Shown here piece after piece: positions 4,449 to 16,720 of a DNA stretch of 24,040 bases. Origin of the DNA: a virus; the IMG/VR virus record IMGVR_UViG_3300001242_000090, positions 1-24,040 of that record, one strand, 5' to 3'. The notes beneath the pieces are model-generated. The model searched no databases. It was not told the DNA's origin and worked only from the letters and a program-made list of their open reading frames with translations. A program made the position numbers and the translations under genes. Position 1 is the first letter of the stretch. The number at the start of each line of letters is the position of its first letter.

Positions 4449-5981
4449 ATGAGTTCCCAATTCATCGAACGCCGCATTGCCATCGGCCTCATTACCAACG
4501 ACCAATACCTGCGGGAAATAGCCCCCGTATTTAATGCCGATCTCCTCAAGGATGAAGCGGCAAAAAAGATTGCCTCCTGGTGCATCCGCTATTTCAATAA
4601 GCACGGAAAAGCACCCCTGGAAGATATCGGGATCATCTTCGAATCATATACCAGGAGGGGGAAACTCAATCAGGAAGAATCGGAGGATATTGGTAGCATC
4701 CTTGACGACCTCAGTGATGAATATCAAACCCAGGCCGAGAACAACCCGGAGGTCCTGATTGACGAAACTTTCGCATACTTCGATGAAAACAGGCTAGTTC
4801 GCCTGGCGGATGATATCAAGGCCGAGGCCCAGCGGGGGAACCTGTTAGAGGCCAATGTACTGCTTGCTACTAATAAGCAAATTCAACGGGCGGTAAATAT
4901 AAACCATGACTTCTTCGCCGATGATATTACCAGGACGCAAAAAATATTTGAAGACATCCAGGAGCCAATTGTCGAATACCCTGGTAAGCTCGGGCAACTC
5001 TGGAACCGGCATTTCGTTCGTGGAGGTTTTGTTGGATTACTCGGCCCTGAAAAAACTGGAAAAACATGGTGGCTGGCAGACATTGGATTCCAGGCCCAAC
5101 GAACCGGTAAAAAAGTAGCCTTCTTTGCGGCCGGGGATATGAACCGGGAGGAAATGGAACTCCGGAAATATATCTATATGGCCAGGAAATCCAACGAACT
5201 TGAATATTGCGGGCAATTGATGATCCCGGTGGTTGATTGTTTCTGGAATCAGAATGGTCAATGTCCGGCTGGTTGCGGTGAATCGCCAATCCGGGGAGAT
5301 AAACCACCGGCCTTCAAGGATCTCCAACAAGTTTATAGCGATGCTTTTGAACAATATGGAAGTGACCATACCCCATGCACCAAATGCCAGGGCAAAAAAG
5401 AATTCCTAGGTGCCCCATGGTTCAAGCTCCGAGATAAAATAGTCCCCCTGAACTGGAAAGAGGCATATAATATTGAGCGAAAATTCCAAAAACGATTTCG
5501 TGGGGCTGGTTGGAACTTTGCCGATTATCCGGCTTATACCCTCAGTCCGAAAATGATTGATAATCAATTGGCCATCTGGCACGAAGGCGGCTTTACAGCC
5601 GATGTTGTGTTGATTGATTATCCGGATATCATGGCCCCAGACCTGGAAGACCAGCGAATGGATTTCCGGCAGAAAGAGAATATGAAGTGGTTGAAGATCC
5701 GGGCGTTGGCCCATAAGTGGCATTGCCTCGTTGTTTGCCCTACACAAGCCGATGGAGCCAGTTATGGCAAGGACTGGCTGGATCTCTCCAACTACAGCGA
5801 GGATAAGCGAAAGTACAGCCATACAACGGCCTTCTTTGGTCTCAATCAAACCGATGGGGAAGCCGAGTTGGGGCTATTCAGGATTAATCAATTAATTGTT
5901 CGAAGTGGAAAGCGAGGAAAGAAGTATGCAACTATTTGCCAGCGGCTCGAAATGGGTCGGCCATTTCTAGGATCATATTAA
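4449..5981 (+). CDS. DnaB-like replicative DNA helicase with Cys-rich insertion
   Basis: At 510 residues it has the size and layout of a DnaB-family helicase. An N-terminal helical domain (about 1-150) precedes a RecA-fold motor with Walker A GPEKTGKT (199-206) and Walker B VVLIDYPD (386-393), followed by a Thr-Gln sensor (CPTQAD). A segment of about 75 residues inside the motor carries six Cys, C254, C264, C272, C276, C310 and C313, likely a zinc-binding insertion not found in bacterial DnaB. The gene follows the MazG-like gene by three bases and has no strong ribosome binding site. It should unwind the fork with the loader at 648-1337. Confidence 0.85.
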   Translation: MSSQFIERRIAIGLITNDQYLREIAPVFNADLLKDEAAKKIASWCIRYFNKHGKAPLEDIGIIFESYTRRGKLNQEESEDIGSILDDLSDEYQTQAENNPEVLIDETFAYFDENRLVRLADDIKAEAQRGNLLEANVLLATNKQIQRAVNINHDFFADDITRTQKIFEDIQEPIVEYPGKLGQLWNRHFVRGGFVGLLGPEKTGKTWWLADIGFQAQRTGKKVAFFAAGDMNREEMELRKYIYMARKSNELEYCGQLMIPVVDCFWNQNGQCPAGCGESPIRGDKPPAFKDLQQVYSDAFEQYGSDHTPCTKCQGKKEFLGAPWFKLRDKIVPLNWKEAYNIERKFQKRFRGAGWNFADYPAYTLSPKMIDNQLAIWHEGGFTADVVLIDYPDIMAPDLEDQRMDFRQKENMKWLKIRALAHKWHCLVVCPTQADGASYGKDWLDLSNYSEDKRKYSHTTAFFGLNQTDGEAELGLFRINQLIVRSGKRGKKYATICQRLEMGRPFLGSY

Positions 5982-5992
5982 AAGGAGAGGAT

Positions 5993-6367
5993 ATGTCAAT
6001 CACAGTAACCAAGAAGTTTAGTTTTTGTTATGCTCACCACTTGCCGGAGTATGATGGAGACTGCTCCCGTGTTCATGGCCACAATAGTGCCGTTGAGGTC
6101 GAATTCACCAATGAGTATGGTCAGCTGCCAAGACCATATCCGGGCATGGTAGTCGACTTCAAGGATATCAAGAAAATTGTCGGGCCGATTATTGATCAGC
6201 TTGATCATCGGTATTTGAATGATATTCTTGACCCCTTTAATCCCACCGCCGAGACCATTGCAAATTGGATTGCCGGCCGGATAATGGAGACCCCACTTGG
6301 TCCGGGATTGATCAGGGTGCAGGTTTCGGAAACTGACGATTCTTTTGCCACCTGGAGAAAAGCATGA
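5993..6367 (+). CDS. queD: 6-carboxy-tetrahydropterin synthase QueD
   Basis: QueD converts dihydroneopterin triphosphate to 6-carboxy-5,6,7,8-tetrahydropterin, the second step towards preQ0. The 124-residue product shows the zinc histidines (FCYAHHLP near residue 15, and HGH at 28-30), the catalytic Cys in DCSRVHGH (C24), the LDHRYLND motif (D71, H72), PTAETIANW and the late Glu in VSETDDSF. The start at 5993 is chosen because it is preceded by AAAAGGAGAGG at the right distance; an upstream in-frame extension to 5936 lies in the helicase gene. It overlaps queE by ATGA. Confidence 0.93.
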   Translation: MSITVTKKFSFCYAHHLPEYDGDCSRVHGHNSAVEVEFTNEYGQLPRPYPGMVVDFKDIKKIVGPIIDQLDHRYLNDILDPFNPTAETIANWIAGRIMETPLGPGLIRVQVSETDDSFATWRKA

Positions 6368-7020
6368 AAACGAAGATTAATATCATGTCAATTTTCTTTT
6401 CAATCTCCGGAGAGGTCAATATCTGGCCGCAAGGAGCCCCGACCATATTCATTCGTTTTGCTGGTTGCAATTTGGCTTGCCACTATTGCGATACCAAACA
6501 ATCAATCAATGCTGCCGGTACCCAGATGACTGTCGAAGAAATAGTCGAGCAGGTCAAATCTTTTGATTGTCAGCGGGTTTTGATCACCGGCGGGGAACCC
6601 CTATTACAAAAGAATGGTCTACAGGCATTAATCAGAGAACTTGATATCCAGGGATATGTGACTAGTGTTGAAACAAATGGATCTCTTCCCCTGGATATCC
6701 TTCCTGAGCATCCGGATTGCTGGGTGGTCGATATCAAGATGCCGGGGAGTGGATATTTTGATTCTATGATCCTGCCGGAAAAACACCTGGAAGATGCCGA
6801 AGTCTGGGATAATTTGATTTTCAAATTCCCAATTGAGAATGAACGAGACTTCCAAACCGCGGCCGATATTATAAAGGATCTGAGCGAACACGCGGCCGGA
6901 TTCGCTCTTTCCCCGATTTCCCCCTTGACTGCAATTGAATTATGGGGATGGATGGTCAGAGCCGGATTGACTCATTGTATCCTAAATACCCAGATTCATA
7001 AGTTTTTAAAATTAGAATAG
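6364..7020 (+). CDS. queE: 7-carboxy-7-deazaguanine synthase QueE (radical SAM)
   Basis: The radical SAM cluster motif CNLACHYC (C35, C39, C42) is followed by TGGEPLL at 75-81. The C-terminal SPISP and LNTQIHKFLKLE segments match QueE. The enzyme turns 6-carboxy-tetrahydropterin into 7-carboxy-7-deazaguanine using S-adenosylmethionine and a [4Fe-4S] cluster. Length (218 residues) is normal. The start overlaps queD by ATGA, so the two are translationally coupled. The queC and folE genes follow further on, separated by two unrelated genes and a promoter-like repeat. Confidence 0.94.
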   Translation: MKTKINIMSIFFSISGEVNIWPQGAPTIFIRFAGCNLACHYCDTKQSINAAGTQMTVEEIVEQVKSFDCQRVLITGGEPLLQKNGLQALIRELDIQGYVTSVETNGSLPLDILPEHPDCWVVDIKMPGSGYFDSMILPEKHLEDAEVWDNLIFKFPIENERDFQTAADIIKDLSEHAAGFALSPISPLTAIELWGWMVRAGLTHCILNTQIHKFLKLE

Positions 7021-7024
7021 ACTG

Positions 7025-7045
7025 CCGGCAGAATTATTTTGCCGG
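7025..7045 (+). other. CCGGCA/TGCCGG hairpin after queE
   Basis: A 6-bp hairpin (7025-7030 with 7040-7045) lies just after the queE stop. No T-run follows, so it may be a weak terminator, a protein-binding site or an mRNA end-stabilising hairpin. Confidence 0.35.
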
Positions 7046-7063
7046 AATGTAAAATATTTCCGT

Positions 7064-7101
7064 AGAAAATCATTCGAAAACAGTATAATAGGATAGAAGA
7101 T
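7064..7101 (+). promoter_or_regulatory. Promoter-like repeat, copy B
   Basis: TATAAT at 7084-7089 sits in AGTATAATAGGATAGAAGATA, identical over 20 bases to copy D at 18014-18033. AGAAAA 14 bases upstream of TATAAT is also shared with copy D, but the inverted repeat is not preserved. It lies 73 bases before the 7162 gene and probably drives it. Confidence 0.6.
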
Positions 7102-7161
7102 AAAAATGGTCAGTGTGATCATTTGCCAGGATTTCCAAACCAAGAATAAAGGAGAATTGCC

Positions 7162-7965
7162 ATGAGTGAACCCAAACGCCCCGAATTGATTGCTGCCGCA
7201 AAGGAATTGAACACCCTGCTGGACCCCGATCCCAAGATCAAGACGGTCGGCGTAAAGACTGATGAATTGACCAAGGCTATTGTGGTAGCGGCCGGCCTGC
7301 TCGATAAGGGGGATTCCCTGACGACCGAAACCCACGCCGTCCTCTGCGCCCTGGAAGTTGAGTTACCGGAAGGCCTGGTCATTGCCGCTGCCGATGCGGA
7401 TGATGAAAATGGCGATAATGCCCAGGAAGAGAAAAAGCCCGAGCCGGCAATTGAGCGGGAAGACCTGGTTGCCCTGATCGAAGAAATGAACAAGGTCATG
7501 GATCTGGACCCGGCAATCGAAGCCAGTGAGAAATCAAGCATCGACGGTCTCAAGAAACTGATCCATGATAATTGCTACGATAAGGGCGAGTGCCAGGTCT
7601 TTGATACCGACAAATTCAGCCCCGAAGCATGGGAAACCTTGACGGTCCTGGGTGTCCGGCCGGTAGTTACCAAGAAGGCCAAGGATAAGCCGGCAAAAGC
7701 CGAGAAGGCAGAAAAGCCCGCCAAGGCCGGAAAAGCGGAGAAGGCTGAGAAGCCGGCAAAGGCCAAGAAAGAGAAAAAGGAAAAATCCCCCGGCACCCCT
7801 TCCAATAAGCGGATTGTTTATGACCTCTTTGCGGCCGGCGAGAAGGATCAGGCAAAAATGCTGAAAGCCACGAATGATGCTGTATCCGCCACGACCATCA
7901 AGATTTGGATCTCCATGTGGGCCAAGGGTAAAAACCTGCCGGCAGGTATCAAAGCCGCCGAATGA
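7162..7965 (+). CDS. Basic DNA-binding-type protein with repeated domain and Lys/Ala-rich tail
   Basis: The 267-residue product has two similar acidic N-terminal modules (IAAAKELNTLLDPDPKI near 10-26 and LVALIEEMNKVMDLDPAIE near 102-120), then a stretch of repeated (E)KAEKPAK-type units like histone H1 tails (about 172-212). A compact C-terminal module follows (NKRIVYDLFAAGEKD ... TTIKIWISMWAKGKNLPA) that resembles a helix-turn-helix. It starts with ATG after AAAGGAGAATTGCC and has its own promoter-like repeat. It may be a nucleoid-type or regulatory DNA-binding protein. That function is inferred from composition only. It overlaps the next gene by ATGA. Confidence 0.65.
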   Translation: MSEPKRPELIAAAKELNTLLDPDPKIKTVGVKTDELTKAIVVAAGLLDKGDSLTTETHAVLCALEVELPEGLVIAAADADDENGDNAQEEKKPEPAIEREDLVALIEEMNKVMDLDPAIEASEKSSIDGLKKLIHDNCYDKGECQVFDTDKFSPEAWETLTVLGVRPVVTKKAKDKPAKAEKAEKPAKAGKAEKAEKPAKAKKEKKEKSPGTPSNKRIVYDLFAAGEKDQAKMLKATNDAVSATTIKIWISMWAKGKNLPAGIKAAE

Positions 7966-8369
7966 AACGAATAGCCTTCATAGGTTGTTCAAAGAGGAAG
8001 AAAACCTCCCCCTGCCAGGCAAAGGACCTGTATCAGGGGGAGTTGTTTAAAAAATCTCTTCGTTATTGCCAACAAGAAAAATTCGACGAAATATATATTC
8101 TGTCTGCCAAATATGGATTGGTCTTTTTACAAGATATCATCCAGCCGTACGAAAAAACCCTGAATACATTTACAGAAGACGAAAAGAAAAATTGGTCCGA
8201 TAAAGTAAAACAACAAATTTTAGAAAAGAATATTTCCGGGGAATTTTGGTTCTTTTGCGGAAGCAATTACCATAAACATTTTGAAGGTGAAAAACCTTTA
8301 TTTGGTTTATCCCTTGGATATCAATTAAACTGGTTCAATCAAAAATTAAAAAAGGGGTTCAATCTATGA
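7962..8369 (+). CDS. DUF6884-like protein
   Basis: The pattern IAFIGCSKRK near the N-terminus, KDLYQGELFKKS and then IYILSAKYGLVFLQDIIQPYEKTL matches the DUF6884 family, small proteins with a Rossmann-like fold often seen in phages. The biochemical role is not clear to me from sequence. Its place directly before queC, with ATGA overlaps on both sides, suggests it may act in 7-deazaguanine or nucleotide chemistry, but that is inference from context. Its base composition is more AT-rich than queC next to it, which hints at separate acquisition. Confidence 0.6.
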   Translation: MKRIAFIGCSKRKKTSPCQAKDLYQGELFKKSLRYCQQEKFDEIYILSAKYGLVFLQDIIQPYEKTLNTFTEDEKKNWSDKVKQQILEKNISGEFWFFCGSNYHKHFEGEKPLFGLSLGYQLNWFNQKLKKGFNL

Positions 8370-9028
8370 AAATCGTCTTATCGCTATCCGGCGGGATGGA
8401 TTCCGCCGCCCTGCTCGGGACCCTGCTCGGGACTGGCCATGAAGTTTTTGCCGTCTCTTTCTTCTATGGTTCCAAGCACAATCAGTATGAATTGGAAGCC
8501 GCCCGGAAGCTGACCGAGCATTATGGTATAAAGCGGCAGTCAATGGATATCTCCGGGATCTTCGCCGGGTTCAAGTCGGCCCTGCTGAAAGAGGATTCCC
8601 GGTCGATCCCGGAAGGTCATTATGAAGACCGTACTATGGTACAAACGGTCGTACCTGGGCGGAATATGATCTTCTCGGCTATCCTTGCGGGGTTGGCCCA
8701 ATCATTCGAGTACGACGCGGTAGCGCTCGGTATCCATGCAGGGGATCATACCATCTATCCGGATTGCCGGCCAGTCTTCAAAGAAAGCATGGATCTGGCC
8801 ATTAAAACCGCTTCTGAGTATTCGGTTTCCTTGTATGCCCCTTTCCTGGGAATGAGCAAGGGAGATATCGTCAAGGTCGGGATGGAGCACAAAGTTCCTT
8901 TTAAATTGACCCGCACCTGTTATAAGGATCAGTCTTTGTCTTGTGGAAAATGTGGATCATGTACCGAAAGATTGGAAGCATTCGCCGAGAATGGCCTGGT
9001 TGATCCGATTCAGTATGCGGTAAAGTAA
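8366..9028 (+). CDS. queC: 7-cyano-7-deazaguanine (preQ0) synthase QueC
   Basis: The ATP-pyrophosphatase loop LSGGMDSAAL (SGGMDS at 8-13), VVPGRNM near 95-101, GIHAGDH and the zinc cluster C185, C193, C196 and C199 (CYKDQSLSCGKCGSC) are all present. QueC converts 7-carboxy-7-deazaguanine to preQ0 with ATP and ammonia. Length 220 residues is normal and there is no fused amidotransferase domain (Gat-QueC). The start overlaps the DUF6884-like gene by ATGA. FolE follows after a 12-base gap containing AGGAGG. Confidence 0.95.
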   Translation: MKIVLSLSGGMDSAALLGTLLGTGHEVFAVSFFYGSKHNQYELEAARKLTEHYGIKRQSMDISGIFAGFKSALLKEDSRSIPEGHYEDRTMVQTVVPGRNMIFSAILAGLAQSFEYDAVALGIHAGDHTIYPDCRPVFKESMDLAIKTASEYSVSLYAPFLGMSKGDIVKVGMEHKVPFKLTRTCYKDQSLSCGKCGSCTERLEAFAENGLVDPIQYAVK

Positions 9029-9040
9029 ATAGGAGGCTCC

Positions 9041-9925
9041 GTGAAAAGAATTATTACAAATGAAGAAGTAGAACTTGCTTGCCTGCCAATAATAAAATCA
9101 ATCCCAAAAGATGAACTAGGGTTTGGTGGGCCGAGTTTTTATGGTGTGCCGCGCGGAGGAATTGCCCCTGCATATATGCTGGCCGGATTAACCGATGGTT
9201 CCGTAGCGGATCATCCTAAAAAAGCCGACTATATTATTGATGACCTGATTGATTCCGGCAGTACCCGAGATCGATACGCCAAACTCTATCCCGACACTCC
9301 ATTCATTACTCTTTTTGAAAAAACCGATCCGATGGAATGGCTGGTCTTCCCCTGGGAAGTTACCGAGCAGGGCCATGACACCTCTGCGGAAGATATCCCA
9401 TCTCGTTTTTTAGAATTTATCGGAGAGGATTTAAATCGGGATGGATTAAAAGAAACTCCAAAACGAATGATTAAAGCCTGGAAAGAAATTTTCAGCGGAT
9501 ATGAACAAAATCCATCTGATGTTATAAAAACTTTCGAATCAGATGGATATGATCAAATAGTCCTTTTACGGGATATTGAATTATATTCCATGTGCGAACA
9601 TCACGCATTACCATTTGTAGGCCGGGCACATGTCGCATATATTCCTGGAGGCAAGGTTATCGGTATTTCAAAGCTCGCAAGACTGATTGATATCTTTTCC
9701 AAAAGATTACAAATTCAAGAAAGAATAGGAGATCAGGTGACCTCAATTCTCATGAATGAATTGAATGCCCAGGGAGCCGCCTGCATAATTGAAGCAGATC
9801 ATTTCTGTATCAGAATGAGGGGCGTCGGAAAGCAGCATTCTACTATGGTAACCTCTTCAATGAAAGGCGTATTTTTAACTAAGCCTGAAGCAAGATCCGA
9901 GTTATTGAGTTTGATCCGGTCATGA
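9041..9925 (+). CDS. folE: Phosphoribosyltransferase-like domain fused to GTP cyclohydrolase I (FolE)
   Basis: Residues 1-105 look like a type I phosphoribosyltransferase: YGVPRGGIAPAY near 34-45 and the PRPP-loop motif YIIDDLIDSGST at 64-75. Residues 117-294 are GTP cyclohydrolase I: MCEHHALPF (C185, H187, H188), GISKLARLIDIFSKRLQIQE, a second zinc Cys in ADHFCIRMRGV (C256) and KQHSTMVTSS. FolE turns GTP into dihydroneopterin triphosphate, the first step to preQ0. Start is GTG at 9041 after AGGAGGC. The end overlaps the first MKIYLA ORF by ATGA. The fused domain's substrate is unknown; handling of a purine or deazapurine base is a reasonable guess. Confidence 0.9.
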   Translation: MKRIITNEEVELACLPIIKSIPKDELGFGGPSFYGVPRGGIAPAYMLAGLTDGSVADHPKKADYIIDDLIDSGSTRDRYAKLYPDTPFITLFEKTDPMEWLVFPWEVTEQGHDTSAEDIPSRFLEFIGEDLNRDGLKETPKRMIKAWKEIFSGYEQNPSDVIKTFESDGYDQIVLLRDIELYSMCEHHALPFVGRAHVAYIPGGKVIGISKLARLIDIFSKRLQIQERIGDQVTSILMNELNAQGAACIIEADHFCIRMRGVGKQHSTMVTSSMKGVFLTKPEARSELLSLIRS

Positions 9926-10097
9926 AAATTTACCTGGCCGGCAATACCCCTGATCGAGTAAAAGAAGAAAAGTTATTTCGAAAGAATGGAATTTGCCCCC
10001 CCGCAGACTCATGGCTTATCATTATCTCATCTGTGATAAATCGGTAATGGAGATGTTTAAATATTTCATCCAAGGTTCCATCCAGAAAAAGAAATGA
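9922..10097 (+). CDS. MKIYLAG cassette i: short DpdA-N-terminus-like ORF, out of frame at C7
   Basis: As written, ATG 9922 gives MKIYLAGNTPDRVKEE and stops at 10046-10048. Across the C7 tract (9996-10002) one extra C changes the frame to RRLMAYHYLICDKS and runs to a TGA at 10095-10097. That stop overlaps the next ATG (10094) as ATGA, exactly as neighbouring genes do. The restored product is 58 residues. Its MKIYLAG start and RLMAYHYL motif match the first 30-50 residues of the dpdA product and the other cassettes. The start also overlaps the folE stop. Function unknown; it could be a phase-variable small protein or a partial dpdA copy. Confidence 0.5.
9996..10002 (+). repeat. C7 tract in cassette i
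   Basis: Seven C lie between the MKIYLAG start and the RLMAYHYL motif; C8 (or C5) would join them in one frame. Confidence 0.8.
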
Positions 10098-10257
10098 AGA
10101 TTTATTTAGCCGGGGTTCCGGGGGGGGCAGTCCCGGGTATTGCAAAAGGGAGATTGAACTGATTGATAAAAATCTATTTAAAACCAGATTACATTCTTTT
10201 TATCATCTAAAAATCACGAATAATAGTATAATAAAGCAGAAGAAAAAGAAGTCGTAA
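10094..10257 (+). CDS. MKIYLAG cassette ii: short DpdA-N-terminus-like ORF, out of frame at G8
   Basis: ATG 10094 reads MKIYLAGVPGGAVPG and stops at 10160-10162. With one more G in the G8 tract (10120-10127) the frame continues through KREIELIDKNLFKTRLHSF and YHLK to a TAA at 10255-10257, three bases before the dpdA ATG at 10261. The motif TRLHSFYHL aligns with RLLSFWDI of DpdA and RLLSYHHI of cassette vi. A promoter-like element (copy C) lies within the 3' part of the restored frame. The clean fit of the restored stop to the next start argues that the longer frame is biologically real. Confidence 0.48.
10120..10127 (+). repeat. G8 tract in cassette ii
   Basis: Eight G separate MKIYLAGVP from the TRLHSFYHL motif; G9 would put both in one frame. 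Confidence 0.8.
10208..10242 (+). promoter_or_regulatory. Promoter-like repeat, copy C, before dpdA
   Basis: TATAAT at 10227-10232 in AGTATAATAAAGCAGAAGA, with AAAATCAcGAA upstream matching AAAATCAttcGAA of copy B. It lies about 30 bases before the dpdA ATG, so dpdA may have its own transcript. Confidence 0.5.
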
Positions 10258-10260
10258 ACC

Positions 10261-11293
10261 ATGAAAATCAACTTTGCCGGCACCCCAGGAACGAGAGAGA
10301 GAGAGAGAGAGGAAATGGCAAAGCCTGATTAACAAGCGCCTCCTCTCTTTCTGGGATATTTCTCAAAATCAATTTAACATACCATTTGCCTTCGAATTAT
10401 CTATGGAAACTAAAGTCGACATCTTCCTTGACTCCGGCGCTTTCTCCGCATTTACCCAGGGCGTAGAAATCGATATTAACGAGTATATCGAATTCATAAA
10501 AGCCCATAAGGATCACCTTGAGGTATATGCCAATCTTGATGTTATTGGTTCCCCGGAAGGCACATGGCGGAATCAGCGGCGCATGGAGAAGGCCGGGGTC
10601 AATCCCCTCCCCTGTTTCCATTATGGCGAAGATCCCAAGTGGCTGCAGATGTATTTATCCAGGGGCTACGACTATATTGCCCTTGGCGGCATGGTTCCTA
10701 TCTCAACCCCTGATCTGAGAATATGGCTGGATGATATCTGGAAAAATTACCTGACCGATAAAGACGGGATGCCGATTATCAAGGTGCATGGGTTTGGATT
10801 GACCAGCAACTCCTTGATGCGGCGATATCCCTGGTGGTCGGTAGATAGTACGAGCTGGGTAATGACTGGCCGGATGGGCGGGGTATATGTCCCGAAATTC
10901 AAGGACGGCAAATACGACTATTCAGAAGACTGCTGGAAGGTCCAGGTCAGCAATCGCAGCCCAAGTAAAAACGAGGCCGGCAAACACCTGGAATCCTTTT
11001 CCCCAATTGCCCGGCAGAATATTGAAAAGTATTTTACCGCCAAAGGATTCAAGGTTGGAGTATCCAAATTTAGGACGGTTGATGCCAAATACGAATTAAA
11101 AGAAGATGAGAAATGGAATGGCAAGGAGGCTGGCGGAAAGAGGGAGGTCGAAAAAATAATCGAGGGCGGTCTCTCCAATGATTACAAGCAGCGAGATGAA
11201 CTGAATATTATCTACTTTCTGGATCTGGAAAAGAACTGGCGGGCCTGGCCGTGGCCGTTTCAACCAAAGGTATCGAGGAGTTTTTCGTTATAA
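10261..11293 (+). CDS. dpdA: DpdA-like 7-deazaguanine DNA transglycosylase, frame broken at a (GA)9 repeat
   Basis: The product resembles tRNA-guanine transglycosylase-type enzymes of the phage DpdA group: LDSGAFSAF (the TDSGGFQ-like active-site loop), YANLDVIG, CFHYGED, YIALGGMV, VHGFGLTS and WWSVDSTSW, whose Asp would be the nucleophile. DpdA enzymes exchange guanine in DNA for preQ0 or a derivative. ATG 10261 (MKINFAGTPGTRERE) fits the family start, but that frame ends at 10330-10332. One more GA unit would connect it to KWQSLINKRLLSFWDI and the main frame. A TTG at 10274 is in the main frame but lacks a ribosome binding site and gives an Arg/Glu-repeat start. The gene therefore appears switched off or expressed by frameshift in this sequence. 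The stop overlaps the next ATG. Confidence 0.8.
10293..10310 (+). repeat. (GA)9 dinucleotide repeat in dpdA
   Basis: Nine GA units follow 32 bases into the ATG-initiated frame. Ten units (or seven) would join the ATG start to the DpdA catalytic frame. A dinucleotide repeat is not the usual place for homopolymer sequencing error. Confidence 0.9.
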
Positions 11294-11517
11294 TGCGCAT
11301 TTACCTTGCAACTTGGCTCCTGGAGATATCACAAGGAGAATCCCTGACCAAAGCAAATGGCCGGCATTGCCTCTTGAGTTATTTTCACACCAAAGAAAAA
11401 GAAGCCGATTTTGATCAATACTGTAAAACCGGAACCAATAGAAACAATCAAAAAGATGAAAATATATCTGGCTGGCAACGGGGCGATGCCAAAAGAACAA
11501 AGAGAAAGTCTGTATAA
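11293..11517 (+). CDS. Cassette iv: MRIYLATWL small protein
   Basis: ATG 11293 overlaps the dpdA stop (TAATG). The product begins MRIYLATWLLEISQGESLTK and has RHCLLSYFHTKEKEADFDQY, the same start and LLSY motif as the other cassettes but with a different spacer. It lacks a C or G tract. The current frame runs to 11517. With one extra base in the A5 run near 11450-11454 it would instead end at a TGA overlapping the next ATG (11456), which would match the local ATGA pattern. It may be a separate conserved subfamily of the same small proteins. Function unknown. Confidence 0.5.
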   Translation: MRIYLATWLLEISQGESLTKANGRHCLLSYFHTKEKEADFDQYCKTGTNRNNQKDENISGWQRGDAKRTKRKSV

Positions 11518-11645
11518 TGGTTGCCCCCCCCCGATTGAAGAGGCGGCTTTTATCATTCTTTGAAGTCCAGCCCGGAAGATTTTGTCATTCTCAATGGAAT
11601 TGGTTACATGAAAATATACTTAGCAAGCATCGCACCAGGCCATGA
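11456..11645 (+). CDS. MKIYLAG cassette v: short DpdA-N-terminus-like ORF, out of frame at C9
   Basis: ATG 11456 reads MKIYLAGNGAMPKEQRES, then after a C9 tract (11524-11532) goes to a stop at 11561-11563. With eight C the frame becomes RLKRRLLSFFEVQPGRF and continues HENILSK to a stop at 11643-11645. The motif KRRLLSFFEV aligns with NKRLLSFWDI of DpdA. The restored end overlaps the start of cassette vi by 38 bases, so a second change may have occurred downstream. Function unknown. Confidence 0.48.
11524..11532 (+). repeat. C9 tract in cassette v
   Basis: Nine C separate the MKIYLAG start from KRRLLSFFEV; C8 would put both in one frame. Confidence 0.8.
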
Positions 11646-11829
11646 GGGGGGGGCGGATCTTCCTGCTTTAAAAATCGATAAGCGCCTTTTATCATACCAT
11701 CATATACTCGGGAATAACTTCGGTTCTACTATTGTATTTAACGCCTTAATAGGAGAAGAGCATGCAGTTAAAAAGAACGGAATTGATAGCCGCCCTGGAA
11801 GAAGTAAAGCCAGGACTCGCCCAGCGTGA
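11608..11829 (+). CDS. MKIYLA cassette vi: short DpdA-N-terminus-like ORF, in frame at G8
   Basis: ATG 11608 reads MKIYLASIAPGHEGGADLPA and, across a G8 tract (11646-11653), stays in frame through KIDKRLLSYHHILGNNFGS and a further 30 or so residues. It then runs 68 bases into the sliding clamp gene in another frame, so the true end may differ. This is the only tract-bearing cassette whose start and RLLSY motif are joined in this sequence, i.e. the 'on' state; one base more or less would stop it within about 10 to 12 codons. An in-frame extension upstream to TTG 11560 is probably not used. Confidence 0.48.
   Translation: MKIYLASIAPGHEGGADLPALKIDKRLLSYHHILGNNFGSTIVFNALIGEEHAVKKNGIDSRPGRSKARTRPA
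11646..11653 (+). repeat. G8 tract in cassette vi
   Basis: Eight G between MKIYLASIAPGHE and KRLLSYHHI. Here the count keeps both in frame. Confidence 0.8.
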
Positions 11830-12781
11830 CATAATTGCGCAATCAACCAGCTTTGTTTTTGCTGGGGATTCAATCACAACTTTCAATGATGAGATATCTG
11901 TCTGGAAGCCATTCAAATCCGGAATCGAGGGAGCCGTCCGGGCCAATGAATTGTATTCCCTCCTTTCCAAGATCAAGGACGAGGAAATCGAAATTGGTAT
12001 TGTTGAAAACGAACTGATCATCAAAGGGAAGCGGAGCAAGGCCGGCATCAAACTGGAAGCCGAAATAATGCTTCCGCTGGATGAAGTCGATATCGAACAT
12101 ACCAAATTTACCAAGCTGCCGGATAACTTCCTGAAGGCCATTTCCATTGCCAGTTACTGCGCCGCCAAGGATCTGAGTAAACCCCTTTTGACCTGTGTCT
12201 ATATTGATGGCGAGGTCGTGACTGCTTCCGATGATTTCCGGATCATTCAAGTCAATTTTGATGCAGAGGTCAAATCCGAACCAATTCTGTTGCCGGCATC
12301 GGTTGTCAAATTCTTGGTTAAGTATGATGTCAAGCGTCTGTCCCATTCCCCCGGCTGGATTCATTTCCATGCCAATGCCTGTCCGGGCTTTCTTGACGGG
12401 CTGATTTTTTCAGCCCGGGTCCTGGCTGGCAAATTCCCAGAGGTTGAGCAATTCCTTGAAGTCAAAGGAAAGGAACTCCATTTCCCGGCCGGCGTTTTGG
12501 AAATGCTGGATCGGGCCGGGGTATTTACGGCGGATTCAGCAAGCGGTGATTTCGTATCGGTGATAGTCGAAGACCGAACCATGATCATCAAAGGGAAAGG
12601 GGATTATGGTTGGTTGGAAGAAACGGCCAATTGTAAATACAAAGGGGAGAAAATCGAGTTTGATGTTGACCCTTCTTTCCTGATTGATATCCTCAAGAAT
12701 TTGCGGAAGTGCATTGTCGGGAATGGGGCTTTGTTATTTGAAGGGGATAATTTCAGGCATGTAGTTGCGCTGGTTGGGTGA
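11762..12781 (+). CDS. dnaN: DNA polymerase III sliding clamp (beta subunit)
   Basis: The 339-residue product has the three-domain layout of bacterial beta clamps, with an N-terminal strand MQLKRTELIAALEEVKPGL, internal strands such as GAVRANELYSLLSKIKDEEIE and a second-domain start KLPDNFLKAISIASYCAAKD. It is shorter than the roughly 370 residues of bacterial DnaN. Start is ATG after AATAGGAGAAGAGC. It is followed four bases later by dnaE, and the clamp loader is encoded at 17000. It should tether the phage polymerase. Family assignment rests on overall pattern rather than a strict motif. Confidence 0.8.
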   Translation: MQLKRTELIAALEEVKPGLAQRDIIAQSTSFVFAGDSITTFNDEISVWKPFKSGIEGAVRANELYSLLSKIKDEEIEIGIVENELIIKGKRSKAGIKLEAEIMLPLDEVDIEHTKFTKLPDNFLKAISIASYCAAKDLSKPLLTCVYIDGEVVTASDDFRIIQVNFDAEVKSEPILLPASVVKFLVKYDVKRLSHSPGWIHFHANACPGFLDGLIFSARVLAGKFPEVEQFLEVKGKELHFPAGVLEMLDRAGVFTADSASGDFVSVIVEDRTMIIKGKGDYGWLEETANCKYKGEKIEFDVDPSFLIDILKNLRKCIVGNGALLFEGDNFRHVVALVG

Positions 12782-12784
12782 TAT

Positions 12785-14251
12785 ATGTTTTGTCACCTCC
12801 ATCTCCACAATGAATACTCCGTCCTTGATGGGGTCGGGACTTCCAAACAATATGCCGCCCTGGCTAAAGAACTTGGACAAACTCATCTCGCAATATCAAA
12901 CCATGGAAACATCGACGGCGCGATTGAACACCAGAAGCAATGCCTTGAAGCCGGGATAAAGCCAATTATCGGAGCAGAGATGTATCTTGTTCCGGATATG
13001 ACCCAGAAACAGAAAGGGGAAACTCGCTACCATATAACTCTACTTGTCGAGAATCAAACCGGCTGGCGGAATCTTCTACAACTCCTGACCATTGCCAATA
13101 TTGAAGGGTTCTACCACAGGCCCAGGATCGACCATAAAACCCTCCTGAAGCATATTGATGGCCTGGTAATCCTTTCGGCCTGCTCCATGTCTTATCTGCT
13201 CCTTGATGTCGAAAATTGGATGATCCTCGATTATATTGAGGCGCTTGGAAAGGATCGAGTTTTCCTGGAGGTCATGCCGCATGATATCCCCGAGCAGGTA
13301 AAAGTAAATAAATTGGCTTTGAAGATATCCAAAGAACTCGGGATTCAAATTGTAGCCACTAACGATGTTCATTATCCGACCAATGAGGCAACCAAACATC
13401 AAGAAGTACTCCTGGCCATCCAATCAAAAAGAACCTGGAATGATCCAAACAGGTGGAAATTTAATTGTACCGGCCTCTTTCTCCGCTCAGAAAAAGAAAT
13501 GGTCGAGGCCTTCCAGGATCAAGGTGTTTTGACTGACCACGAGATCCGGAAGGCAATCCGGATGACTGGCAAGGTCGCCAGGCTTTGTGAAAACTTTCGG
13601 ATTGAACAGCAAGAAGTATATCTGCCAAGCATCAAGAAATCTTTTAATGATGAATCAGAATTATTGTTTCTTGAAAATATGGTTTACAAGGGATTGAAAA
13701 GAAGAATCCGCGGGCGAACTTTCGAGGAATTGAAGCCATACAAAGAACGAATCGAAATGGAAATGAAACTGATCATCTCCAAGAAGTTCGTTCGCTACTT
13801 CCTCATCGTTTGGGATCTTATTCAATGGTGCCAAAAGAATAATGTAATGACTGGACCAGGGAGGGGGAGTGCTGGTGGATGCCTTGTTGCTTACCTATTG
13901 TATATTACTGATTGTGATCCCCTCATCTATGGTACAGAGTTCTTTCGGTTTATAGATATAAGCCGGTGTTTTATTGGAGGCACAAAAGTATTAATCAATA
14001 ATGGGGTTAAAAATATTGAAGAAGCAAAAATCGGAGATATTGTTATAAATAAATATGGGGAAGAAGATGAAATTGAAAAGATTAGAAAATTTAATGTAAA
14101 AGAAAAACTTTTGAAAATTTATTTTGAGGATAAATTTATTATTTGCACTCAAGATCATAAATGGATAGTTAAGGATGAGAATGAAAATATAGTAGAAAAA
14201 ATGGCGAAATATTTAAATCCCGATAAGGATAAACTAATAAGGATAAAATGA
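12785..14251 (+). CDS. dnaE-N: DNA polymerase III alpha, N-terminal half plus N-intein
   Basis: Residues 1-394 are the N-terminal part of DNA polymerase III alpha: a PHP domain starting FCHLHLHNEYSVLDGVG, with HYPTNEA and the start of the palm, GPGRGSAGG near 360. Residue 395 is a Cys that begins an N-terminal intein piece of 94 residues. It shows block A (CFIGGTKVLINNG ... AKIGDIVIN) and block B (FIICTQDHKWIV with the T-x-x-H motif), then the gene ends. The break falls after FRFIDISR, just before the catalytic Asp motif that lies in the other half. The intein part is clearly more AT-rich than the polymerase part. The stop overlaps the endonuclease ATG (ATGA). Protein trans-splicing with the product at 15077 should restore the polymerase. 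Confidence 0.92.
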   Translation: MFCHLHLHNEYSVLDGVGTSKQYAALAKELGQTHLAISNHGNIDGAIEHQKQCLEAGIKPIIGAEMYLVPDMTQKQKGETRYHITLLVENQTGWRNLLQLLTIANIEGFYHRPRIDHKTLLKHIDGLVILSACSMSYLLLDVENWMILDYIEALGKDRVFLEVMPHDIPEQVKVNKLALKISKELGIQIVATNDVHYPTNEATKHQEVLLAIQSKRTWNDPNRWKFNCTGLFLRSEKEMVEAFQDQGVLTDHEIRKAIRMTGKVARLCENFRIEQQEVYLPSIKKSFNDESELLFLENMVYKGLKRRIRGRTFEELKPYKERIEMEMKLIISKKFVRYFLIVWDLIQWCQKNNVMTGPGRGSAGGCLVAYLLYITDCDPLIYGTEFFRFIDISRCFIGGTKVLINNGVKNIEEAKIGDIVINKYGEEDEIEKIRKFNVKEKLLKIYFEDKFIICTQDHKWIVKDENENIVEKMAKYLNPDKDKLIRIK

Positions 14252-15090
14252 TGAGAAGGAGGAATCTTCTAAAATCAGGAATTTATTGCATAAAAAATAT
14301 TATCACCAATAAAATTTATATTGGTAGTTCAATAAATTTAAAAAACAGAATAAATGAACATAAGCGTTATTTAAGCAAGAAAACTCATCATAGCAGCCAC
14401 CTACAAAGATCGTGGGATAAATATAAAGAAGAAGCATTTGAATTTAATATTATAGAAAGGGTTTGTAATGAAAAACTTTTAGAAAGGGAGCAATACTGGA
14501 TTAATTTTTATAAGTCATCAAATAGAAAATTTGGTTATAATATTTGTCCGATTGCCGGAAATACCCTTGGGGTCAAAATGTCAGAGGAGGTCAAAAGGAA
14601 AACCTCCGAAAGAACCAAAGGGGAGAAAAATCCAATGTTCGGCAAAACACATACTCCAGAAGTTAGAAAAATATTATCTGATTTTCATACCGGATTAAAA
14701 GTAACTGATGAATTTAGAGAAAAAATGTCTATTGTAACAAACGGAGAAAACAATGGAATGTATGGCCGAAATCACTCGGTAGAAGCAAAAGAATCAATAG
14801 CAACGAAACTAAAACAAAGAGGCGGTTATTTAGGGGAGAAAAATCCTAATTACGGCAAAAAGTGGTCGATAGAACAAAGAAAGGCGATGAGTGAAAGGTT
14901 GTTATCAGAAAAGACTATGGCCGGAGACAATAACCCGAACGTAAAAATAAAAAGTTATAATTATCCAAAAATTCTAAACAGAATTAGAAATAAAGGGAGA
15001 AAAGCAATTCCATTTTTAGCAAAACATTTTGGAGTTTGTCCAGCTACCATAGATAATATATTAAAGAAGGTGGATTGTGAAAACTATTGA
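14248..15090 (+). CDS. Free-standing GIY-YIG homing endonuclease with NUMOD3 repeats
   Basis: A GIY-YIG nuclease domain occupies residues 10-100 (GIYCIKNIITNKIYIGSS; Arg in NLKNRINEHK; the metal Glu in LEREQYWINFY). It is followed by NUMOD3-type DNA-binding repeats (GEKNPMFGKTHT, GENNGMYGRNHS, GEKNPNYGKKWS, GDNNPNVK) and a C-terminal helix-turn-helix (AKHFGVCPATIDNILK). It lies between the two halves of the split intein polymerase gene and overlaps both reading frames (ATGA at the front, 14 bases at the back). It probably cuts inteinless dnaE alleles and drives homing of the whole insertion. AT-rich composition marks it as foreign to the surrounding genes. Confidence 0.93.
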   Translation: MMRRRNLLKSGIYCIKNIITNKIYIGSSINLKNRINEHKRYLSKKTHHSSHLQRSWDKYKEEAFEFNIIERVCNEKLLEREQYWINFYKSSNRKFGYNICPIAGNTLGVKMSEEVKRKTSERTKGEKNPMFGKTHTPEVRKILSDFHTGLKVTDEFREKMSIVTNGENNGMYGRNHSVEAKESIATKLKQRGGYLGEKNPNYGKKWSIEQRKAMSERLLSEKTMAGDNNPNVKIKSYNYPKILNRIRNKGRKAIPFLAKHFGVCPATIDNILKKVDCENY

Positions 15091-16720
15091 AATCAAAGAA
15101 TCCATAAAAATTAAAAAAATAGAAGAGTTTGATTTTGAAGGGTTAGTCTATTCTTTAAAAGTTAAGAATGATCCGTCTTACTGTTTAGAAAACAAAATAA
15201 TAACAAAAAATTGCGACCTTCCTGATATTGATATGGATTTTGAGGACATCCGCCGCGATGATGTTCGTAAATATCTTTCTGAAAAATATGGGGAGTATAA
15301 TGTAGTTGGCCTTTCCAATTTCCTGACCATGAAAGGAAAGGGCGTACTTCGCGATGTAAGCCGCGTTTTCGATATCCCCTTATCAGAGGTCGACTTTGCC
15401 GCCAAGGCGATGGTAGAGGCCGAAGTAGGCCAGGAGATCGAGAAGTCTTTCAGTGAGGTTCCGGAGTGCCGGAGATTCGGTCAGAAATATCCAGAAGTGA
15501 TTGAGGTTGCCCAATCCATCGAAGGACAGATCAGAGGCCATGGTCAGCATGCGGCCGGCGTCTGTATTTCCGAAAAGGATCTCCGGGAAGGTCACAATTG
15601 CAATCTCGTTACCCGGGCCGGTACCATAGTGGCCAATTGGGATATGAGGAATGCAGAGTATTGTGGTTTGATGAAACTGGATATCCTTGGACTTTCAGCC
15701 CTAACCATCTTGAATGAATGCCGACGGATGGTAAAACAGAATCACGGGATTGATATCAATTATAAAAAAATTACCTTCGATGATCCAAAAGTCTTTGCCG
15801 AAATATCCGAGGGCAATACGGTCGGGGCCTTCCAGATTGGTTCAAATGGCCTGACCAATTATTGCAAGGAACTCGGGGTTGAAAATTTTCAAATGCTCTA
15901 TGCAGTAACGGCCTTGTGGCGTCCTGGTCCCATGCAATCAGGGATGACCGAGTTATATTCCAAGCGGAAACGGGAAAAGGCCAAGGTCGAAAAGATTCAT
16001 CCTATTTTTGATAAACTGACGGAGGAAACATTCGGGGTCATTGTTTATCAGGAACAGGTCATGAAAGCGGTCAATCAATTGGCTGGCATCCCTATGTCAA
16101 CTTGCAATAAGATCAGGAAGGTCATGGGCAAGAGTATGGGTCACGCCGCTTTCGATAAATATAAAGACGAGTTCCTGCAGGGTTGTAAAAATCAAGGAAC
16201 GATCCCGGAAAAGAAGGCCATACAAATCTGGGATATGATGTCGAAATTCGGTGGTTACGGCTTCAATCTTTCTCATTCTGTAGAATATTCAATGATTACA
16301 TATTGGGACATGTTTAGCAAAACATATTTCCCCAATGAGTTCCTTGCTTCCTGCCTGACCCTTGGAGATAAGACAAAAAACATTGAATATATCAGGGAAG
16401 CCAGGCGGCTTGGTTTGAAGATCAATCTGCCAAAAATTGGTATTTCAGATGCGGTCAAATGGAATTGTGACAAGAAAGGTAATTTGTATGCCCCATTTAT
16501 TTCCATTAATGGCGTCGGCGAAACCGTAGCTGAAAAGATTGCTGCAGCCAAACTCGGGGAGAAGCAGCGGAAAGGCTTTTTCTCATCGACCCCAAGTGAA
16601 AAGATCCCCGGCGTGAATAAAAACGTAACCGCAATCCTGACCCAGATAAATGCATTTGATCCTGATTATGTGACAACAAGAGATGATCTGAAGAAGTTTA
16701 AATCACTATTTATTTTTTGA
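15077..16720 (+). CDS. dnaE-C: C-intein plus DNA polymerase III alpha, C-terminal half
   Basis: Start is GTG at 15077 after AGAAGGTGG. Residues 1-45 form a C-terminal intein piece (FEGLVYSLKVKNDPSYCLE, ending IITKN). Asn45 is followed by Cys46, the nucleophile of the C-extein. The polymerase resumes with CDLPDIDMDFEDIRR, which carries the palm Asp pair, then RGHGQHAAGVCIS, LWRPGPMQSGM, GVIVYQEQVMKAV and the finger region. It stops at 547, so the spliced alpha subunit is about 896 residues, shorter than bacterial DnaE (about 1160), lacking most of the C-terminal region. The penultimate intein residue is Lys, not the common His. Together with 12785-14251 it makes the replicative polymerase. Confidence 0.92.
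   Translation: MKTIEIKESIKIKKIEEFDFEGLVYSLKVKNDPSYCLENKIITKNCDLPDIDMDFEDIRRDDVRKYLSEKYGEYNVVGLSNFLTMKGKGVLRDVSRVFDIPLSEVDFAAKAMVEAEVGQEIEKSFSEVPECRRFGQKYPEVIEVAQSIEGQIRGHGQHAAGVCISEKDLREGHNCNLVTRAGTIVANWDMRNAEYCGLMKLDILGLSALTILNECRRMVKQNHGIDINYKKITFDDPKVFAEISEGNTVGAFQIGSNGLTNYCKELGVENFQMLYAVTALWRPGPMQSGMTELYSKRKREKAKVEKIHPIFDKLTEETFGVIVYQEQVMKAVNQLAGIPMSTCNKIRKVMGKSMGHAAFDKYKDEFLQGCKNQGTIPEKKAIQIWDMMSKFGGYGFNLSHSVEYSMITYWDMFSKTYFPNEFLASCLTLGDKTKNIEYIREARRLGLKINLPKIGISDAVKWNCDKKGNLYAPFISINGVGETVAEKIAAAKLGEKQRKGFFSSTPSEKIPGVNKNVTAILTQINAFDPDYVTTRDDLKKFKSLFIF

Follow-up and report, generated by a model that had tools for sequence, protein, structure and literature searches.

Phase-variable small genes related to the DpdA N-terminus around a viral dpdA, and a possible genetic split of the DpdA barrel

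Positions 1 to 24,040 of the IMG/VR virus record IMGVR_UViG_3300001242_000090 (24,040 nucleotides, the whole stretch analyzed and here called the window) carry the gene dpdA, predicted to encode a DNA 7-deazaguanine transglycosylase, amid a cluster of six short open reading frames on the same strand. It is well supported that these short frames form a protein family without a Pfam or PHROG entry of its own, and that they are phase variable, with slippage at simple-sequence tracts switching the reading frame. Sequence comparison also gives good support for regarding each of them as a detached copy of the N-terminal module of DpdA, comprising β1 (KIYLAG), α1 (RE), and β2 (RLLSYxxI). The arrangement suggests a split DpdA with phase-variable N-terminal modules, a reading to which we give about an even chance and under which the modules would dock on the enzyme core in trans, change its specificity, and serve against restriction. 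Phages are known to modify their DNA with 7-deazaguanines through DpdA, a modification that protects against restriction (PMC6884629), and repeat-driven phase variation is known in bacteria, for example in the poly-G genes of Campylobacter (PMC8355987). The array described here joins hypermodified phage DNA and contingency loci, two fields not linked in the papers searched.

The module array and its kinship with DpdA

A search for the motif pair, a MKIYLAG-type start followed by a second motif in any frame, returned exactly six pairs on the plus strand of the window and none on the minus strand, compared with a mean of 0.007 and a maximum of 1 in 300 first-order Markov randomizations of the window; the randomized and antisense controls together rule out a chance origin. 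The starts lie at 9922 (MKIYLAG), 10094 (MKIYLAG), 10261 (MKINFAG), 11293 (MRIYLAT), 11456 (MKIYLAG), and 11608 (MKIYLAS), and the second motif is reached about 23–30 codons later, in frame for 11293 and 11608 and shifted for 9922 (+2), 10094 (+2), 10261 (+1), and 11456 (+1). The first-pass annotation had reported six such starts, each leading to the second motif in one frame or another; both observations hold, and the hypermutable tracts that it missed explain the differing frames. Five of the six modules contain a simple-sequence tract between the two motifs, including all four with a shifted second motif (the module at 11293 has none), and these five tracts are all but one of the G or C runs of at least 7 and the GA arrays in the 24 kb. 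Overlapping ATGA were not used as evidence, since a Met-Lys start itself forces ATGA. Relatives were collected by a dpdA-core search, in which the best 80 of 418 were analyzed as loci, and by a module-first search with two-motif DNA patterns that did not require a tract.

All six modules and their tracts are on the plus strand. Module 1 (subfamily NTPDR, 9922–10097) starts MKIYLAGNTPDR and has its second half, RRLMAYHYLICDKSVMEMFKYFIQGSIQKKK, in frame +2; it is off in the window record, where a C7 tract (9996–10002) is the site of the frame break, and the tract is C9 in the relative L002 (off) and C8 in L004 (in frame). Module 2 (VPGG, 10094–10257), MKIYLAGVPGG followed by TRLHSFYHLKITNNSIIKQKKKKS in frame +2, is likewise off in the window with a G8 tract (10120–10127), and is in frame with G9 in L002. 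Module 3 (TPG, 10261–10402) runs from MKINFAGTPGT(RE)n to KRLLSFWDISQNQFNIPFAFELS across a (GA)9 tract (10293–10310), the number of GA units being 9 in the window, 8 in L002, 5 in L003, and 8 in L004. Module 4 (ATWL, 11293–11517), starting MRIYLATWLLEISQGESLTKANGRHCLLSYFHT, is tract-free and in frame, and its ATG overlaps the dpdA stop. Module 5 (GNGAM, 11456–11645), with MKIYLAGNGAMPKEQRESLYNG and then KRRLLSFFEVQPGRFCHSQWNWLHENIL in frame +1, is off and contains a C9 tract (11524–11532); it is missing from L002 and L004 and has C8 in L003 and C9 in L006. Module 6 (APG(N/H)E, 11608–11829), starting MKIYLASIAPGHEGGADLPALKIDKRLLSYHHILGNNF, has a G8 tract (11646–11653) and is nonetheless in frame (on), while its counterpart in L040 is off with G7, the second half there being 100% identical to that of L003, which has G8.

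A Pfam scan of 11 representative modules gave nothing significant, and a PHROG scan of the same 11 gave a single weak match, to PHROG 887, which is DpdA itself (E = 0.0024). A profile of the N-terminal module of fused DpdA proteins was aligned by hhalign with the stand-alone TPG and APG modules over 54 columns (99.4%, E = 5e-22) and with the ATWL subfamily over 44 columns (97.1%, E = 7e-11). The resemblance seen in the first-pass annotation therefore extends beyond the first six residues, and the pattern common to fused and stand-alone modules is MKIYxAG, then RE, then RL(L/I)S(Y/F).

The dpdA core (10403–11293, plus strand) matches PHROG 887 (E = 6.5e-59) and PHROG 7068 (E = 6e-28) as a DNA 7-deazaguanine transglycosylase resembling tRNA-guanine transglycosylase (TGT). 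It begins METKVDIFLDSGAFSAFTQG at barrel strand 3, with a conserved start of its own, METKVDIFLDSGAF, at 10403 just ahead of that strand. The core alignment contains LFLDSGAFSA, HGFG, and SVDSTSW kept in dpdA relatives, and we take DSGAF to be the counterpart of the TDSGGY strand of TGT. Of 41 genes in which a module is in frame with dpdA, 35 have a Met in the last 12 codons ahead of strand 3, compared with 27% of control segments (p = 6.5e-14), so that the core can start independently even in such genes. In 19 of 68 dpdA clusters, strand 3 is preceded by fewer than 25 in-frame codons, and at least one stand-alone module is found near 17 of these 19. The earlier statement that only the third short frame continues into DpdA is true of the second half of module 3, which is in frame with the dpdA core, and fails for its ATG at 10261, which is out of frame with a core that has its own start. 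In the relative L132 (420–2315), dpdA reads through a long insertion that ends in YVTGN directly before SVDSTSW and looks like an intein at the conserved core of the enzyme.

AlphaFold2 modeled an intact in-frame fused DpdA (L105) with high scores (predicted local distance difference test, pLDDT, 90.9; predicted template modeling score, pTM, 0.89) and with eight barrel-type strands, of which the module contributes 2–5 (KIYF) and 24–28 (RLLSY), followed by 60–64, 95–97, 134–136, 153–157, 189–192, and 208–211; its closest structural matches are closed TIM barrels. The model of an unfused core starting at strand 3 (L055, MKNKISLFLDSGAFSA; pLDDT 82, pTM 0.76) is without the first two strands, and its closest structural matches are tRNA-guanine transglycosylases, which, unlike the dpdA core, carry strands 1–2 in the same chain. 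The prediction of eight strands in the fused relative and two fewer in the unfused core supports, without proving, that the module forms strands 1–2 of the DpdA barrel. The first module of the window and the dpdA core are in different frames. No match to the fused dpdA profile was obtained among PDB sequences.

Simple-sequence tracts and switching of the reading frame

The density of G, C, GA, or CT tracts in 69 dpdA clusters is 4.42/kb in the module spacers and 0.193/kb elsewhere in the same loci, a 23-fold difference. Of the 44 modules with a tract, 21 are off frame, compared with 7 of the 88 without (p = 3.9e-7), the in-frame share of tract-free modules thus being 92%, and the frequency of tracts varies with subfamily (TPG 15/20, ATWL 2/34, LLSYYD 0/8). 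Near-identical contigs differ in tract length with the expected change of frame (C7/C9/C8, G8/G9/G8, GA 9/8/5/8, and G8 vs. G7, as given for modules 1, 2, 3, and 6), and in another virus group the tract lies within dpdA itself, with G8 in L007 (off) and G9 in L015 (on). Where pairs with an off-frame member are compared in the frame of the second half, mismatches at codon positions 1, 2, and 3 number 617, 358, and 1252, a skew from which it follows that the second halves of off-frame modules evolve as codons.

With about half of the tract-bearing modules out of frame, the short frames might be taken for decaying or mis-assembled genes, that is, duplicated dpdA fragments degenerating by insertions and deletions or products of homopolymer assembly errors. 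The codon-position skew led to the rejection of pseudogene decay, and this explanation as a whole is highly improbable, given also that the insertions and deletions cluster in tracts at one structural position, that tract-free modules so largely remain in frame, and that the same subfamilies and gene order recur among phages whose dpdA cores are only ∼50–60% identical. Programmed or transcriptional slippage at the tracts, yielding a steady low level of in-frame product in place of genomic switching, would fit the off-frame state of 21 of 44 tract-bearing modules in assembled genomes and the coding constraint on their second halves. It is decidedly improbable in view of the differences in tract length and frame between near-identical genomes, in which both states are seen, and of the use of G, C, GA, and CT tracts at the same place, C and GA tracts not being usual slippage sequences.

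Joined and free modules and the possible completion of the barrel

In the 80 loci of the dpdA-first search, 154 modules lie on the dpdA strand and none antisense, and 113 of 117 stand-alone modules fall within −0.7 to +2.6 kb of dpdA strand 3. The module-motif search alone found 32 virus contigs, 28 of which carry dpdA, so the link of the motif to dpdA proposed in the first-pass annotation holds; the four module-bearing contigs without dpdA on record (L021, L025, L030, and L040; 9.6–22.7 kb) are probably fragments. The subfamilies NTPDR, VPGG, TPG, ATWL, GNGAM, APGNE, SGYSVMN, and LLSYYD are recurrent, as is their order around dpdA, with up to six modules per genome. The module that shares the reading frame of dpdA differs by phage: it is TPG in the window, with VPGG standing alone, and VPGG in L005, L044, and L046, with TPG standing alone; the TPG module is stand-alone in L005 and L042–L047, and in L062 a stop separates the VPGG module from dpdA. 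Between relatives that are 98–99% identical, modules have been gained, lost, or replaced. In another virus group (L010, L016, L007, and L014), several KIYLAG or KIFLAG segments lie ahead of dpdA and likewise carry G7–G9 or (AG)n tracts, some of the segments being fused in tandem in a single frame (L016: MKIYLAG...MDIYLAG...MNLFLAGG...LESFYY). Three module queries gave no tblastn match among 50,697 cultured-phage records, none of the small open reading frames beside dpdA in Rhizobium and Vibrio phages was module-like in translation, and that of the Rhizobium phage did not match the fused-module profile.

The change of the in-frame module from phage to phage, together with the gain, loss, and replacement of modules between close relatives, is what would be expected if the partial copies worked like silent cassettes and recombined with the 5' end of dpdA to vary its N-terminus. 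The longest exact run shared between two modules, with a median of 8 nucleotides and a 95th percentile of 14, is no greater within a genome than between genomes, so that recent exchange within the array is not seen, and no long repeats were found within 9900–11860; gene conversion between modules was rejected on these two grounds. As modules of one genome share no DNA beyond background, module exchange appears to take place between viruses and not within the array. Every module has its own start and a coding-constrained second half, and starts and tracts would be superfluous in silent donors, which leaves the donor explanation decidedly improbable. Among the three roles suggested in the first-pass annotation (small partner proteins, regulators, and recombination donors), partners that share the DpdA N-terminal module are the best supported, through whole-module homology, occurrence in fused and separate form, and the tracking of dpdA, and the donor role is not supported.

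In the split arrangement proposed here, the TIM barrel of DpdA would be divided genetically, with a core gene beginning at strand 3 and with strands 1–2 (β1-α1-β2-α2, ∼50–60 residues) supplied by the small paralogous genes that flank the core, one of them perhaps in frame with it. In most module subfamilies the two strands are separated by a G, C, or GA tract, which usually lies in the β1-α1 region, and slippage at this tract joins or splits the frame of the two module halves and so switches each module independently. A stand-alone module may then dock in trans on the core and complete the barrel, different modules may alter its activity or its DNA-sequence preference, and the virus might thereby vary its DNA modification against host restriction. 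Trans completion and altered specificity are suggested by the pattern of joined and free modules, their similar length, the strands missing from the core, and the position of the β-α loops, which form the active-site face of a TIM barrel, so that alternative modules would change activity or site preference. The idea that any one of several mini-proteins, interchangeable and each phase variable on its own, completes the barrel in trans and so acts as a combinatorial switch of DNA-modification specificity is proposed tentatively and put at somewhat below an even chance.

The modules may instead be phase-variable small proteins descended from the DpdA N-terminus that act alone, for example by regulating or inhibiting DpdA or by countering restriction, and do not complete the barrel. 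This possibility, which we consider unlikely though a serious one, gains from the conservation of each subfamily's own sequence, from ATWL and LLSYYD, two conserved subfamilies that mostly lack a tract and were in no case seen fused, and from the number of modules, since up to six per genome exceed what one core could use simultaneously. It loses from the median module length of 59 amino acids, which is near the median distance of 51 amino acids from the start of a fused module to strand 3, from the identity of the residues kept in fused modules (MKIYxAG, RE, RLxSY) with those kept in stand-alone ones, and from the swapping of modules between joined and free states.

Several points weigh against the split-barrel proposal. 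The ATWL and LLSYYD subfamilies, absent from every fusion with dpdA and rarely carrying tracts, may do something else. Two relatives with a dpdA that has no fused module (L091 and L112) show no stand-alone module in the DNA examined, and the three recognized modules of L055 are all off frame. The module-core complex is itself a prediction from sequences and models: AlphaFold2 was run on single chains only, the model of the fused protein and that of the unfused core were built from different sequences with alignments of different depth, and the TM-scores from Foldseek are modest, at ∼0.3–0.4 by query. Tract lengths were read from metagenome assemblies and not from reads or clonal populations, and the (GA)n arrays could partly reflect the coding of a conserved RERE motif.

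The array resembles bacterial simple sequence repeat contingency loci in its in-frame G or C homopolymers and dinucleotide arrays, length polymorphism, on/off frameshifts, and several independent loci per genome; it differs from them in being viral, in consisting of paralogous mini-genes around one enzyme gene, and in the fixed place of the tract, between barrel strands 1 and 2. Phase-variable specificity is also known in restriction-modification systems, through the shuffling of type I hsdS and the repeats of type III mod genes, and the array would work in a like way, with interchangeable parts of a DNA-modifying enzyme being switched stochastically. Unlike in those systems, no methyltransferase, inverted repeats, or recombinase are seen beside the dpdA array, and the part swapped would be a quarter of a TIM barrel and not a target-recognition domain as in hsdS-type systems, with a specificity effect that is presumed. 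The first-pass annotation knew of no described system with such a layout, and none was found in the open-licence papers searched, which describe neither a phase-variable dpdA, nor free DpdA N-terminal modules, nor such arrays, nor a precedent for a trans-completed split-barrel specificity switch; this is suggestive and not final. If the inferred step is true, viruses would possess a stock of enzyme parts that can be switched to adjust DNA modification from particle to particle, which would help against hosts with varied restriction systems, and a natural TIM barrel built from separately encoded, swappable β-α units would bear on the evolution of the barrel. Apart from the trans step, dozens of virus genomes share this gene family, whose members are easily overlooked or annotated as frameshifted fragments because some half of those with a tract are out of frame.

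Gene neighborhood of dpdA

The preQ0 synthesis genes adjoin the dpdA array upstream as a block on the plus strand (5936–9925; Pfam and PHROG), with a QueD-type PTPS (5936–6367), a radical SAM protein that is QueE-like by position (6364–7020), QueC (8366–9028), and FolE (GTP cyclohydrolase I) with a fused phosphoribosyltransferase-like N-terminal part (9041–9925). The N-terminal part of FolE comprises ∼110 amino acids, and the match to PHROG 8995 is weak. Within the same cluster, a DUF6884/YaaA-like protein is encoded at 7962–8369, adjoining QueC. The dpdA product of the window is predicted to insert 7-deazaguanine into DNA.

Downstream follow a DNA polymerase sliding clamp (11762–12781, plus strand; PHROG 947, E = 8e-28) and DNA polymerase III alpha, and the order of preQ0 genes, FolE, dpdA, clamp, and polymerase is of the same kind as in cultured DpdA phages. 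The closest known systems of this kind are the DpdA and preQ0-pathway DNA modifications of Enterobacteria phage 9g, CAjan, and the Queuovirinae (PMC6884629). Cultured DpdA proteins carry the same kind of N-terminal module in fused form (MKLYLAGIYTSNFHKES (MKLYLAG)...LESYHYI...KVFLDSGAFSAF), and in the four cultured DpdA phages examined the module is fused in DpdA, with no free-module arrays and no tracts, unlike in the window.

Two segments at 1713–1922 of the window, GAGCATGGTGGCGGAATGGCAGACGC and CTGCAGGTTCAAGTCCTGCCCATGCTCGCA, resemble the two ends of a tRNA ∼200 bases apart, and neither ARAGORN nor Rfam gives a match there. The DNA polymerase III alpha gene (12785–16720) is broken after ISRCFIGGTKVLINNGVKNIEE by what looks like an intein, and an open reading frame for a GIY-YIG/NUMOD3 homing endonuclease (14248–15090) lies between the two polymerase parts.

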